Positions 8,322-12,442 of a DNA stretch of 64,000 nt are shown in pieces. Position numbers and translations under genes: made by a program. This stretch comes from an uncultured beta proteobacterium (GTDB lineage: Bacteria > Pseudomonadota > Gammaproteobacteria > Burkholderiales > Burkholderiaceae): NCBI GenBank assembly GCA_903867305.1, contig CAIPQU010000079.1, positions 1-64,000 on the forward strand. The letters are read 5' to 3'. The first letter of the stretch is position 1, and the number at the start of each line of letters is the position of its first letter. The notes beneath the pieces were generated by a model. It worked only from the letters and a program-made list of their open reading frames with translations, had not been told where the DNA came from and did not search any database.

Positions 8322-8344
8322 AAATGCACCCATGTTGTGCATTT
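8322..8344 (+). terminator. Probable rho-independent terminator of smpB
   Basis: Eight perfect base pairs (AAATGCAC / GTGCATTT) around a 7-base loop begin 2 bases after the smpB stop. The downstream tail is TCATTCT rather than a full U-run, so strength is probably moderate. It separates smpB from the ATP-grasp operon. Confidence 0.6.
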
Positions 8345-8403
8345 TCATTCTAAAAGGTAAATAAAAATATACAAAATCACTAAAAAAGTATTATCTTGTA
8401 GTA

Positions 8404-9816
8404 ATGACAAAGCCTTTTGATGAAATGTTCGATGATTTTGGTAAGCCTCGCCCCCACTACAAGGAATTTAGTGAATGGTTAGCCATACAGAGTGATGGTC
8501 AAATGTCCCTAAAAAGGGATGAGGCAGAATTAATTTTCCGAAGGATCGGTATTACTTTTGCAGTTTATGGCGATGAAAAAGGTACTGAAAGAACCATTCC
8601 GTTTGATCAAGTCCCCCGAATTATTCCTGCAAAAGAATGGGCCATATTAGAGGAAGGCTTAAAACAACGTGTTAAAGCTCTCAATATGTTTTTACATGAT
8701 GTTTATCATGATGAAAAAATCCTAAAAGCTGGCATTATTCCAAAAGAGCAAATCTATAACAATTCGCAGTACCGTCCAGAAATGCGCTTTATAGATTTAC
8801 CTCGTAATATCTACGCACATATAGCAGGTATCGATATTATTCGGGCAGACGCAGGCGAGTATTTTGTGCTTGAAGATAATCTGCGTGTTCCATCCGGCGT
8901 TTCTTATATGGTTGAAAACAGGAAAATGATGATGCGATTATTTCCTGATCTTTTTCAGCGCCACCGCGTTGCTCCTGTTGAGCACTATCCAGATTTATTA
9001 TTAGAGTGCCTAAAGACGGCTGTTCATAGTACTGTCAAAAAGTTAAATGTTGTTGTCCTAACACCTGGGATGTTTAACTCGGCGTATTTTGAACATTCTT
9101 ATCTAGCCCAACAAATGGGTGTTGAGCTTGTTGAGGGTAAAGATTTATTTGTCAAAAATGAACAAGTATTTATGAGAACAACTCAAGGTCCTCAACTCGT
9201 GGATGTGATCTACCGCCGAATCGATGATGATTTTTTAGATCCTTTGGCAATGCGAGCTGATTCTACACTTGGTATCCCAGGGATATTGAATGCTTATCGC
9301 GCAGGTAATGTTGGAATTAGTAATGCTGTTGGAACAGGAATCGCTGATGATAAATCGATTTATCCCTATGTTCCAGAGATGATTAAGTTTTATCTCAATG
9401 AAAATCCCATTCTAAAAAATGTTCCTACCTTTCAGTGCCGTAAAGCCGATGACCTAAAATATACTCTTGCGAATTTAGAAAACTTAGTCGTTAAAGAAAC
9501 CCACGGTGCCGGTGGTTACGGAATGCTCATTGGCCCGCTCGCCACAAAAACTGAAATCGAAAATTTCAGGAAATATTTAACGGCTCATCCAGATAAATAC
9601 ATCGCACAACCAACGCTAGCCTTATCAACCTGCCCGACTTTCGTAAATGCTGGTATTGCTCCTAGACATATCGATCTTCGACCTCTCGTATTATCGGGTA
9701 AACAAATCAAAATGGTCCAAGGTGGTTTAACGCGTGTTGCTTTAAAAGAAGGCTCCTTGGTCGTTAATTCATCTCAAGGTGGTGGCACGAAAGATACTTG
9801 GGTATTGGAGTCATAA
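8404..9816 (+). CDS. Circularly permuted ATP-grasp protein (COG2308 type)
   Basis: A 470-residue predicted ATP-dependent carboxylate-amine (peptide/amide) ligase of the circularly permuted ATP-grasp superfamily. Conserved blocks are LEDNLRVPSGVSYMVENR (156-173), YRRIDDD (270-276), ETHGAGGYGM (365-374), RHIDLRP (421-427) and SSQGGGTKDTWVL (456-468), so the active site looks intact. It is first in a four-gene operon with alpha-E, transglutaminase-like and Anbu genes. No Shine-Dalgarno precedes the ATG; a TATTAT hexamer ends only 9 bases upstream, so a nearly leaderless mRNA is possible. The family is clear, but the substrate is unknown. Confidence 0.93.
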   Translation: MTKPFDEMFDDFGKPRPHYKEFSEWLAIQSDGQMSLKRDEAELIFRRIGITFAVYGDEKGTERTIPFDQVPRIIPAKEWAILEEGLKQRVKALNMFLHDVYHDEKILKAGIIPKEQIYNNSQYRPEMRFIDLPRNIYAHIAGIDIIRADAGEYFVLEDNLRVPSGVSYMVENRKMMMRLFPDLFQRHRVAPVEHYPDLLLECLKTAVHSTVKKLNVVVLTPGMFNSAYFEHSYLAQQMGVELVEGKDLFVKNEQVFMRTTQGPQLVDVIYRRIDDDFLDPLAMRADSTLGIPGILNAYRAGNVGISNAVGTGIADDKSIYPYVPEMIKFYLNENPILKNVPTFQCRKADDLKYTLANLENLVVKETHGAGGYGMLIGPLATKTEIENFRKYLTAHPDKYIAQPTLALSTCPTFVNAGIAPRHIDLRPLVLSGKQIKMVQGGLTRVALKEGSLVVNSSQGGGTKDTWVLES

Positions 9817-10802
9817 TGCTAAGTCGGACCGCAGATTGTCTCTATTGGATGGCTCGTTATACAGAGCGTGCTGAAAATACCGCACGGATGCTCGACGTTG
9901 CTTATCAAACCTCCTTAATGCCACAACCCATCGAATTTGCCGATCAAAGCTGGAGAAAATTACTCAATGTTTCTCTTTTAGAAGATCTTTTTGAAAAGAA
10001 ATATTCTAGTTATAGCCGTGAAAATATCCTTGAATTTATGATTTTTGATGCTGAAAATCCCTCAAGTATTGTTTCCTGCCTGAATGCTGCGCGGGTGAAT
10101 GCACGAATTATTCGTGGAAAAATACCCTCGGAAGTTTGGGAGACACAAAATTTAACTTGGTTGAATCTGAACGAGTTTTTACCAGAAAGTTCATCCCATG
10201 ACCCCTCCGCTTTTTTTGAGTGGGTGAAATATCGTTGTCATTTATTCCGGGGAGTTGTCTTTGGCACAATGTTAACCAATGAAGCCTTGCATTTTATGGA
10301 ATTTGGAACCTATCTCGAACGCTCAGATAATACAGCTCGGATCCTTAAAGCAAAGTACATCGCCCAGCAAGATCTTAACCATACTCAAAGTCAATCAATG
10401 CAATCGGGTTTATTTAAAATTGATAATACGAGCGAGACATTTAATTTTTATCATTGGGTTTCATTATTGCGCTCAGTTTCAGCTTTTGAAATCTTTAGGC
10501 AGACCTACTCGGATCAAATTACCCCTGAACGCATCGTCGACTTGTTAGTCTTTAACAAACAATTACCAAGGTCATTAATCAAATGTATCGATCAAATACT
10601 TCTTTTAACAAATCACCTTAAAAATAATAAGTCCAAAGAAATTGAACGTTTGATTGGTAAATTAAAGTCTGAGTTAGATTATTCAAATATTGAGGATATT
10701 TACTCAGAAGGTCTAGATGAATTTATACAACGTTTTTTAGAAAAAATTAATCACATCGCGGATGAATTTAGTAGTGCCTATCTAATTCCGCTATCCTCCT
10801 AA
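9816..10802 (+). CDS. Alpha-E domain protein (COG2307)
   Basis: A 328-residue mostly alpha-helical protein of the alpha-E family, always linked to the circularly permuted ATP-grasp partner. The family start MLSRTADCLYWMARYTERAENTARML is present as contiguous blocks; the ATG at 9816 overlaps the upstream stop by one base (TAATG), which decides the start over one at 9798. Other marks are FEWVKYRCHLFRG and GTYLERSDNTARIL in the middle. No catalytic motif is known; comparative genomics suggests it works with the ligase. The stop is 4 bases before the next start, indicating one operon. Confidence 0.92.
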   Translation: MLSRTADCLYWMARYTERAENTARMLDVAYQTSLMPQPIEFADQSWRKLLNVSLLEDLFEKKYSSYSRENILEFMIFDAENPSSIVSCLNAARVNARIIRGKIPSEVWETQNLTWLNLNEFLPESSSHDPSAFFEWVKYRCHLFRGVVFGTMLTNEALHFMEFGTYLERSDNTARILKAKYIAQQDLNHTQSQSMQSGLFKIDNTSETFNFYHWVSLLRSVSAFEIFRQTYSDQITPERIVDLLVFNKQLPRSLIKCIDQILLLTNHLKNNKSKEIERLIGKLKSELDYSNIEDIYSEGLDEFIQRFLEKINHIADEFSSAYLIPLSS

Positions 10803-10806
10803 AAAT

Positions 10807-11601
10807 ATGCAACTTAAAATTACTCATCGTACCGAATATCTTTACGAAAGATATGTCCATCACTCGATTCATGAACTTCGGCTAACGCCCATCAATAGTT
10901 CCAATCAAGCAATAGATAGTTGGAAAATATCCACTCCGAATAAGCTCACTGAGTCTTTTGATGCCTTTTGTAATACCTGTCACGTTTTTGTGATGGATAG
11001 TAATTACATGAATCTGATGATAGAAGCAAAAGGAGAGATACATACGAAGGATCAATCTATTTTTGAAGATCCTAAAGATGCTGTATCTCCTTATTATCTT
11101 TTACAACAGACGCATCTTACTGAACCTAGCTCTGCAATGCTAGAACACTTTGAATCATTAAAAAAAGAGCGTTGGACTCCAGATCTATTATTAAAACTAG
11201 CAAAAGAAATCCAAGAAATGATTTCCTATGAGTCAGGGATAACGGTGATTGAAACATCAGCAGCCCAAGCCTTTGAATTAAAAAAAGGAGTCTGTCAAGA
11301 CCATGCTCATATGATGCTGAGTATTTGTCGCTCTTTTGACATACCCGCAAGGTATGTTAGCGGATATTTTTATGATGAAGATAACAGTGATTTAGCCAGC
11401 CACGCTTGGGTTGATGTTTGTTTGGATATTGAAAATGCGATCTGGCATAGCATCGATGTCACCAATGCTTGCTTTAGTAATGATCGACATATCCGTTTAG
11501 CTGTTGGGAGAGATTATGCTCATGTCGCACCTGTCAAAGGAATTAGATCTGGTGGTGGTCGTGAGGAACTGAATACAAAACTTTCCATTGAAAAATGTTA
11601 A
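10807..11601 (+). CDS. Transglutaminase-like cysteine protease (COG1305)
   Basis: A 264-residue transglutaminase-fold protein. The N-terminal beta domain (about 1-90) begins MQLKITHRTEYLYE, and the core has the triad Cys163 (GVCQDHAHMM), His199 (ASHAWVDV) and Asp217 (HSIDVTN). The C-terminal signature GRDYAHVAPVKGI is typical of the family members that accompany ATP-grasp/alpha-E pairs. There is no signal peptide, so it is cytoplasmic. With an amide ligase beside it, a role as peptidase or amidase on the ligase product, or as a transamidase, is plausible but unproven. It is third in the operon. Confidence 0.93.
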   Translation: MQLKITHRTEYLYERYVHHSIHELRLTPINSSNQAIDSWKISTPNKLTESFDAFCNTCHVFVMDSNYMNLMIEAKGEIHTKDQSIFEDPKDAVSPYYLLQQTHLTEPSSAMLEHFESLKKERWTPDLLLKLAKEIQEMISYESGITVIETSAAQAFELKKGVCQDHAHMMLSICRSFDIPARYVSGYFYDEDNSDLASHAWVDVCLDIENAIWHSIDVTNACFSNDRHIRLAVGRDYAHVAPVKGIRSGGGREELNTKLSIEKC

Positions 11602-11632
11602 ATTATCAGATATTCCATTTCAATCAATCAAC

Positions 11633-12442
11633 ATGACCTATTGCGTAGCTATTTGCCTTGAAGAAGGCCTTGTATTTTTATCCGACACTAGAACCAATGC
11701 CGGCGTAGACGATATTGGTACTTTTAGAAAAATGACCATCTATAAAAATGATGATCAACGAATATTTACTCTTTTATCTGCTGGTAACTTGGCGATTTCT
11801 CAGGCTGTTAAAGAAATCCTCAATCAAGGTTACTTGTTTGATGGCGTCAATATTTGGAATGCTAAAAATGCTTATGAAGCAGCCCTTGTCGTAGGCCTAG
11901 CCATTCGCAAAGTAAAGGAACGTGACGAAAAAGCACTTGCGGACGCAGGTATCGACTTTAATTGTAACTTCATCTTTGGCGGTCAAATTCTCGGAGAAAA
12001 ACCTCGCTTATTTAATATTTACTCTGCAGGTAATTTCGTTGAGTCAACCCTAGAAACCTGCTATTTTCAAATCGGTGAAGCCAAATATGGCAAACCTATT
12101 TTAGATCGTGTTATTAAACACCATACCCCACTTGATTTAGCAACTAAATCTGCCTTGATCTCCATGGACTCAACCCTCAAGAGCAATATTTCTGTAGGAT
12201 TGCCACTCGATTTATTTGTTTATGAGAAGAATTCGTTCAGCCTGAAGAAAGCAATCACGATTGATGAATCTAACCCTTATTTTGGAATGATTCGAAAATT
12301 ATGGGGGCAGAAATTAACAGAAATTGTCATGAGTGTTCAAGAGCCAAACTGGGAAGATAATCCTGAATTCTTGGCCATCATGGCGACACCTGAAAAAATA
12401 GGCCCAATCCCCTTAATTCAGAGTACTGAGCCTAAAGTTTAA
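11633..12442 (+). CDS. Anbu: proteasome-type Ntn protease (BPH family, COG3484)
   Basis: A 269-residue Anbu protein, a bacterial ancestral-beta-subunit relative of proteasome and HslV peptidases that assembles into rings. The start is the ATG at 11633, because the family begins MTYCVAI and Met removal exposes Thr2 as N-terminal nucleophile. Asp18 ([10 protein letters not shown]) and Lys33 (FRKM) are in the positions expected for the Ntn active site, and [11 protein letters not shown] is family-typical. An upstream in-frame start at 11588 would bury the nucleophile. The start has no clear Shine-Dalgarno. No unfoldase ATPase lies nearby. The stop overlaps that of ppsA on the other strand (TTAA). 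Confidence 0.93.

Follow-up and report, generated by a model that had tools for sequence, protein, structure and literature searches.

Operons that encode an ATP-grasp protein together with Anbu, a proteasome relative of elusive function, are already in print, as is the idea of a ligase working alongside peptidases, and the locus analysed here is a further example. In the Y. bercovieri operon, as reported in PMC6376114, the genes for the ATP-grasp, alpha-E, transglutaminase-like (TG) and Anbu proteins stand in a conserved order; the ATP-grasp protein released phosphate, and Anbu was inactive on three proteasome substrates. The P. putida operon PP_2685-2688 contains the Anbu and transglutaminase genes with two more, and its nitrogen control, with induction on nitrogen limitation, has been published (PMC7801951). 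According to the data given there, an rpoN mutant still induces PP_2686-2688 14- to 20-fold, which disfavours a strict need for sigma-54, and Anbu itself (PP_2685) is up only 1.1-fold in the wild type. The B. cenocepacia cluster I35_5080-5083 (DUF404/DUF407, DUF403, TG and a large TG) likewise combines a ligase pair with TG proteins and is reported to depend on sigma-54/NtrC; unlike the present locus, no Anbu is named in its description in PMC5491218. The RimK/RimB and RloC/RloB/RloA systems also join an ATP-grasp protein to a peptidase, and the inactive transglutaminase of Rlo recalls the TG protein considered below. In these systems, however, the peptidases are aspartic (retropepsin-like), RloC is called RimK-like, and alpha-E is not named in the account in PMC12239564.

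In the window, as we call the whole 64,000-nt stretch that was analysed, four intact genes, the first of which encodes a circularly permuted ATP-grasp protein, follow one another in the published order on a single strand (Table 1). The intergenic gaps are as short as -1, +4 and +31 nt, and co-transcription of the four genes is likely, judging from gaps and strand. Profile or PDB sequence matches identify each of these genes and thereby confirm what the first-pass annotation had read at this place, including the alpha-E partner next to the ATP-grasp gene (match to PF04168). The ATG that is the likely start of the alpha-E gene overlaps the ATP-grasp stop by one base. The operon is flanked by smpB upstream and by a convergent phosphoenolpyruvate synthase gene at the other end.

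Table 1. Features of the Anbu operon and its upstream region (window positions).
Feature	Position	Strand	Evidence or context
Putative NtrC box TGCACCCATGTTGTGCA (TGCAC-N7-GTGCA)	8325..8341		directly after smpB stop
20 nt block before ATG, presumed promoter or leader	8384..8403	+	genus alignment
ATP-grasp, predicted ligase, 470 aa	8404..9816	+	PF14403 E 4.1e-161; PDB 3n6x E 9.7e-213
alpha-E protein, 328 aa, predicted all-helical	9816..10802	+	PF04168 E 4.7e-93
Transglutaminase-like cysteine hydrolase, 264 aa	10807..11601	+	PF08379 (Bact_transglu_N), PF01841 (Transglut_core); 3isr
Anbu Ntn-hydrolase, 269 aa	11633..12442	+	5loy, 5nyw, 5nyj, 5nyf, 5lox

The ATP-grasp protein of the window retains E157, N159 and D424 as well as the GGYGM loop, and the three residues are kept in all 121 unfused ATP-grasp rows (6 of 151 frames were left out before counting as too short, leaving 145 rows), so that the ligase site proposed earlier is indeed intact. 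By analogy with glutathionylspermidine synthetase, we take E157, N159 and D424 to serve in Mg binding at the ATP/Mg site; the protein is a predicted carboxylate-amine ligase. Its alpha-E partner shows an internal duplication: the halves align with an hhalign probability of 98.3, and each ER motif of one (E17-R18) has its counterpart in the other (E168-R169). An AlphaFold2 model of alpha-E reached a pLDDT of 82 and a pTM of 0.82.

Both hydrolases likewise carry their catalytic residues. The TG triad C163, H199 and D217, already pointed out in the first-pass annotation, is present in the window; among 104 operon TG rows, 101 keep the Cys, all keep the His and 103 keep the Asp, the exceptions being three rows with Ser in place of Cys and one with a gap at Asp. 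Anbu has no Pfam match at E 0.01 and no NCBIfam match, and it matches five PDB chain sequences, all of them Anbu and one designed (E 1e-78 to 7e-64). A start at TTG 11588 would add 15 residues to it; since 18 aligned relatives open with M-T-Y-C, the start is placed at ATG 11633, from which alone Thr becomes N-terminal. The earlier assignment of an N-terminal-Thr peptidase thus stands with this start and not with the TTG, and the TG and Anbu genes therefore do not overlap. Thr1, which would be exposed by removal of Met, is accompanied in the window by Asp17 and Lys32 (numbering after Met loss), in line with the Thr1, Asp17 and Lys32/33 of the published Anbu type; T1 is found in 164 of 165 Anbu rows, and D17, R19 and K32 in every one.

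The box directly behind smpB suggests when, if not on what, the operon acts; the first-pass annotation mentions neither this box nor control by nitrogen. It lies 62 bases before the ATP-grasp ATG, matches 12 of the 14 positions of the E. coli NtrC consensus, and is shared in this genome by the operon, glnA and a DUF2126 gene. Eight exact matches occur in the genome, against none in a backwards control. Within the genus the box was found at all 31 loci scored, with its first base 78 to 82 bases ahead of the ATG and a score of 8 to 10 of 10, and upstream of glnA in all four genomes where that site was read. The head of the operon therefore looks to be nitrogen-controlled by an NtrC-type box, although in this genome a clear nitrogen gene is missing behind five of the eight and the box is not clearly enriched in genome G043 (4 versus 2 in the control), both of which count against our preferred reading. 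Neither a sigma-54 -24/-12 promoter nor, by consensus scan, a sigma-70-like one was found upstream of the operon; the block preceding the ATG is conserved (AAAGGCATTAGTTTGTAACT type) in most of the aligned genus loci and has diverged in the window.

Unlike the P. putida and Y. bercovieri operons, then, that of the window has an NtrC box without a sigma-54 site, and the NtrC of this genus mostly lacks GAFTGA: the motif is lost in 17 of 20 proteins read, usually as GAFPGA and in this genome as GAFINA. In addition, rpoN is missing in 23 of 37 genus genomes. The NtrC proteins of Caulobacter and R. capsulatus, which also lack GAFTGA, reportedly work at sigma-70 promoters (PMC10274813), but they have had the loop deleted, whereas substitution prevails in the genus studied here. 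The genus may be regarded as an example of NtrC parting from sigma-54.

Of the 145 ATP-grasp rows, 125 heads went into the upstream scan, 103 of them unfused and 22 fused; the others had a short upstream region or no start codon. After reduction to unique proteins, and with the genus taken as loci L050-L057 and L001-L033 (named loci being assigned to it by titles and matches only), 89 unfused heads lay outside the genus. A strong sigma-54 site precedes 33 of these (0.75 expected) and an NtrC box 29 (2.1 expected); 45 have neither, which again speaks against the preferred reading. Neither feature was detected before any of the 22 fused heads. Among 61 stand-alone Anbu genes, a sigma-54 score of at least 9 was reached by eight (2.8 expected), a weak excess at most, and an NtrC box was found once (1.9 expected).

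As for which genes travel together, alpha-E, fused or unfused, is present in 234 of 396 Pseudomonadota genomes, Anbu in 166 and both in 163, the loci having been picked for alpha-E or Anbu and the counted genomes not being independent. Anbu is missing from 71 of the alpha-E genomes; the three genomes with Anbu and no alpha-E all belong to one genus and are at odds with the preferred reading. In 100 loci with an unfused pair, a short TG and Anbu occur together in 61, a short TG without Anbu in 18, Anbu without a short TG in 14, only a large TG in four and neither hydrolase in three. The ATP-grasp/alpha-E pair is the core, beside which the hydrolases assort and TG, Anbu or both may be absent. 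This division between ligase core and accessory hydrolases tells which gene to remove first.

We give an even chance to the reading that the operon is a nitrogen-starvation amide or peptide ligase with interchangeable hydrolases. When nitrogen is scarce, NtrC would bind at 8325-8341 and switch on the operon together with glnA. Aided by alpha-E, which is taken to bind or shape the substrates, the ATP-grasp protein would use ATP to couple a carboxylate to an amine, giving a small amide or isopeptide, and the TG-like enzyme and Anbu would cut or trim such amides. By such a cycle of making and releasing, nitrogen may be stored, salvaged or signalled. In this scheme the class of substrate, the role of alpha-E, the direction of flow and the action of NtrC in this organism are what we infer. 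The co-occurrence of alpha-E with Anbu, the assortment of the hydrolases, the box common to the operon and glnA, the sites enriched before unfused heads and the expression published for P. putida and B. cenocepacia favour the scheme. Besides the points already named, it is opposed by the failure to find a sigma-54 or consensus sigma-70 promoter in the window, by the at most weak excess of sites before stand-alone Anbu genes, by the rpoN-mutant and Anbu data from P. putida, and by the inactivity and lack of detected partner binding of Y. bercovieri Anbu. Should the operon be on together with glutamine synthetase, the condition under which to hunt for its product would be given.

Protein tagging, along the lines proposed by Iyer 2009 and by Valas and Bourne (as summarised in PMC6376114), appears rather unlikely. 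Proteins would here be marked by ATP-grasp/alpha-E with a peptide or a single amino acid, and Anbu (or TG) would either take this tag off again or degrade its bearer, much as in the cycles of Pup or ubiquitin; the degraded protein would supply nitrogen, and a ligase and a proteasome-like hydrolase do share one operon and co-occur across genomes. However, the gaps between the four genes are too small for a tag-protein gene of the Pup/ubiquitin type beside the ligase, and, as had been noticed at the outset, no AAA+ unfoldase of the proteasome/HslUV type is encoded among the four. Moreover, the ligase pair occurs in places without one or the other hydrolase, 71 alpha-E genomes have no Anbu, and binding of Anbu to its operon partners was not detected in a test described in PMC6376114. 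Of the earlier suggestion of a peptide-tagging ligase with peptidases, the ligase-plus-hydrolase part is upheld by the co-occurrence of alpha-E with Anbu and by the invariance of the ATP-site residues considered in the unfused rows, and the peptide-tagging part is neither borne out nor contradicted.

It is improbable that the hydrolases are central, freeing nitrogen from imported or turnover-derived isopeptides or amides, with the ATP-grasp protein only recapturing or protecting intermediates. The box common to the operon and glnA, the assortment of the hydrolases and a correlation with urea-metabolism domains reported for marine metagenomes (PMC3597751) would suit this view; in genome G015, however, the ligase pair is kept while linked TG and Anbu have been lost from the same site, the opposite of what it predicts. 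About as improbable is that Anbu serves to degrade proteins, turning them over on nitrogen limitation with only a loose connection to the ligase (near the view of Fuchs 2017), for although Anbu binds proteasome inhibitors (PMC5666114) and its upregulation on nitrogen limitation has been reported, the link cannot be called loose when alpha-E is found in nearly all Anbu genomes, including all four of the draw with an unlinked Anbu (G116, G283, G372 and G443).

The preferred reading, a nitrogen-starvation ligase with interchangeable hydrolases, can be extended tentatively, at slightly less than even confidence. The Anbu system would belong to the nitrogen-starvation response of many Proteobacteria and consist of the ligase pair and swappable hydrolases, with a fused paralogue in which a dead ATP-grasp stands beside a glutamine synthetase-like amidoligase. 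In Polynucleobacter-like bacteria, NtrC control would have persisted although NtrC lost its contact with sigma-54 and many species lost sigma-54 as well; as a result, two genomes keep just two perfect NtrC boxes, one before glnA and the other before this operon.

The fused ATP-grasp-alpha-E family occurs in this genome too, where C156 encodes the fused protein and a TG, and C164 a TG-DUF2126 protein (PF09899). Most fused copies adjoin a large TG protein, and that of this genome a DUF2126 amidoligase. The domain families are those of the window operon, and its NtrC box recurs before the DUF2126 gene. In contrast to the unfused rows, E157 and N159 are kept in none of 24 fused rows, and the glycine loop has almost entirely gone; with its ATP site lost, this family offers a naturally occurring negative control of the ligase step.

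The assembly holding the window comprises 3.14 Mb in 174 contigs, and its source is probably Polynucleobacter-like, since the closest labelled relatives of its Anbu (a proteasome relative) come from Burkholderiaceae MAGs (80%) and Polynucleobacter kasalickyi (71%). The four-gene set proposed in the first-pass annotation, which comprises ATP-grasp, alpha-E, transglutaminase-like (TG) and Anbu genes, was recovered on one strand, flanked by smpB and by a phosphoenolpyruvate synthase gene that runs convergently. The window Anbu has no match in Pfam or NCBIfam, and its start was placed at ATG 11633 because all 18 aligned Anbu proteins begin with MTYC.

Features of the operon and its upstream region in the window
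Feature	Positions	Strand	Basis or sequence
NtrC box (predicted)	8325-8341		TGCACCCATGTTGTGCA
ATP-grasp	8404-9816	same as other three	Pfam
alpha-E	9816-10802	same as other three	Pfam
TG	10807-11601	same as other three	Pfam
Anbu	11633-12442	same as other three	five Anbu chain sequences of PDB

The active sites listed in the same annotation are likewise retained. E157, N159 and D424 of the ligase site occur in the window and in all 121 rows (114 unique) of unfused ATP-grasp, i.e. that encoded separately from alpha-E; the first two are presumably counterparts of the Mg ligands of glutathionylspermidine synthetase. Of 104 operon TG rows, 101, 104 and 103 retain Cys163, His199 and Asp217 of the triad, respectively. 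The N-terminal Thr of Anbu is present in 164 of 165 rows (161 unique; Ser in the other one), with D17, R19 and K32 invariant throughout. The alpha-E protein shows an internal duplication, predicted helical structure and two ER motifs, and W11, R14, E17, R18, R24, R100, E168 and R169 each reach a conservation of at least 0.99 across 124 unfused rows; the protein's role might, at a guess, be substrate binding. The operon is a further example of a type already described, reportedly by Iyer 2009 together with its possible tagging role, and the regulatory and pseudo-ligase results given below add moderate interest. Both operon and tagging role are also covered in PMC6376114 and PMC5666114.

Regions upstream of ATP-grasp genes (heads) were scored for sigma-54 sites (score of at least 10 out of 11, in the 400 bases before the gene) and NtrC boxes (at least 11 out of 14, against the E. 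coli consensus TGCACCAnnnTGGTGCA as quoted in PMC8743547), expected counts being derived from Markov shuffles. Among 89 unique unfused heads outside the Polynucleobacter-like group (the genus), sigma-54 sites were found in 33 versus 0.75 expected and NtrC boxes in 29 versus 2.1; 44 heads carry either strong site, 45 carry neither, and 28 carry both at looser cut-offs. Some of them are located over 200 bases upstream of the gene. Neither site was detected upstream of fused genes, which encode ATP-grasp and alpha-E in one protein (0/22 for each). Sigma-54 sites are alike in frequency in heads with linked Anbu (28/77) and without it (9/26), and in the control regions a score of 9 or more was reached upstream of 3/74 linked (4.1 expected) and 8/61 stand-alone Anbu genes (2.8 expected). 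Our search of the accessible literature, by listings and passages, retrieved no report of such a conserved NtrC/sigma-54 head across Proteobacteria.

In the genus, the palindrome TGCAC-N7-GTGCA begins 78 to 82 bases upstream of the ATG at 31 loci, some of which may be near-identical strains (L030-L033 were left out); 26 copies are perfect, three score 9/10 and two 8/10. The window's genome contains eight copies (none of the backwards control). Three stand one each before the operon, glnA and a TG-DUF2126 gene, the last separated from its gene by 42 bases; another falls within ntrC, contig C27 has two, and the final two have no clear target. Four copies occur in G002 and two each in G016, G026 and G033, with controls of 0, and four versus two control copies in the more distant G043. 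Both copies of G026 and of G033 are at glnA and the operon; those of G016 are at glnA and the end of trpC, its operon box having one mismatch. One of the four G002 boxes precedes the operon and another an ammonium-transporter-like gene (below the model cut-off), and the remaining ones stand before no clear nitrogen gene. The copy inside the ntrC coding sequence (L244, position 3008; G000:C53:62507) is a perfect palindrome, as are the two on C27 (L243, 2946-2962 and 3036-3052), which are mirror copies 90 bases apart; the adjoining frame looks terminase-like by eye and has no NCBIfam match.

NtrC itself scored above cut-off in 59/61 relatives, and rpoN was not found in 23/37 genomes of the genus, including a few incomplete ones; the window's genome has it. 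Among 20 NtrC proteins of the genus (L283-L302), GAFTGA is kept in three (G005, G006, G032) and reads GAFPGA in 13, the others having GAFLGA, GAFQGA, AQFGNT and, in the window's genome (L295, G000:C53:61400-63800), GAFINA. GAFTGA is present in 0/12 proteins from rpoN-less genomes versus 3/8 from rpoN-bearing ones; G032 also has a perfect sigma-54 site upstream of its operon, and the ntrC of G023 contains an internal stop. Precedents for NtrC acting at sigma-70 promoters are offered by Caulobacter and R. capsulatus, according to PMC10274813. For NtrC in Polynucleobacter, the literature search brought up a single paper, on Zwartia.

Published work describes induction of the operon by nitrogen limitation in P. 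putida (PMC7801951, PMC3325844) and an NtrC-dependent sister cluster in B. cenocepacia (PMC5491218). In a P. putida rpoN mutant, however, PP_2686-2688 were still up 14- to 20-fold (PMC7801951), which speaks against a strict need for sigma-54. We therefore regard the sigma-54 part as weakened, the balance between the two readings of the operon being unaffected. The favoured one, which we give roughly an even chance, is that of a nitrogen-starvation ligase: the ATP-grasp/alpha-E pair would form an amide or peptide under nitrogen starvation, with interchangeable hydrolases. Protein tagging by the operon ranks behind it and seems rather unlikely.

A single draw of 396 Pseudomonadota genomes was surveyed: 234 contain alpha-E, fused or unfused (a fused-protein query likewise matched 234), 166 contain Anbu, 163 contain both and 159 neither (Fisher p 3e-49, without correction for kinship). 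The three genomes with Anbu and no alpha-E (G178, G311, G399) belong to one genus of the window's class. Anbu with neither ATP-grasp nor alpha-E within 9 kb of stretch read was seen at 61 loci, mostly Comamonadaceae by record label (only 36 with 4.5 kb on both sides), and alpha-E lies elsewhere in all four such genomes of the draw (G116, G283, G372, G443). Among 100 unfused-pair loci with enough flank, selected for alpha-E or Anbu and partly overlapping, 61 combine short TG with Anbu (two also with a large TG), 18 have short TG and no Anbu (one with large TG), 14 Anbu and no short TG (five with large TG), four only large TG and three none of these. Bact_transglu_N matched in 8/10 genomes tested; the other two, G051 and G037, have the pair and Anbu. 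For 35/37 genomes of the genus, Anbu and unfused alpha-E are in agreement. The exceptions are G021, which is 79% complete (contig edge), and G015, which is 93% complete; in G015 the ATP-grasp and alpha-E frames are open at the same site with neither TG nor Anbu. Since TG and Anbu may be absent beside a kept pair and Anbu co-occurs with alpha-E, we take the ligase pair to be the core of the system and the hydrolases to be accessory.

In the small genome G017 (L028, G017:C1:974000-990000) the matches to ATP-grasp, alpha-E and Anbu are fragmented and that to TG is short of 30 residues at its start, as if the operon were decaying as a unit; its NtrC box is still perfect. Many stand-alone Anbu genes (L058-L129, Comamonadaceae-type) lie near a mutS-like gene (a cluster in 37 loci) and an alpha/beta-hydrolase-like gene (31 loci), both named by eye. 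A putative zinc metallo-peptidase, possibly a further hydrolase, occurs near the ligase genes in L035, L159, L196, L204, L205 and L206 (PF15887 with zinc ribbon in L205, the one checked).

The window's genome carries alpha-E at a second place, contig C156, as a fused ATP-grasp-alpha-E protein of 864 aa accompanied by a TG gene, and contig C164 encodes a TG-DUF2126 protein of 1164 aa (the large TG copy in which DUF2126 was checked). DUF2126, a 'putative amidoligase' in Pfam, is reportedly GS-like according to the abstract of Iyer 2009. Fused genes were seen at 23 places, represented by 24 rows (L018 and L027 share one place), and at 18 of these places a large TG lies in the stretch read. The same literature search retrieved no report of a lost ATP site in the fused family, a loss that Iyer 2009 may discuss. 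E157, N159 and D424 are found in 0/24 fused rows, which have also lost most of the glycine loop; D279-P280, R426, G440-G441 and W466 are among the residues kept at 90% or more, and the fused ATP-grasp is probably a pseudo-ligase acting beside the GS-like DUF2126 enzyme.
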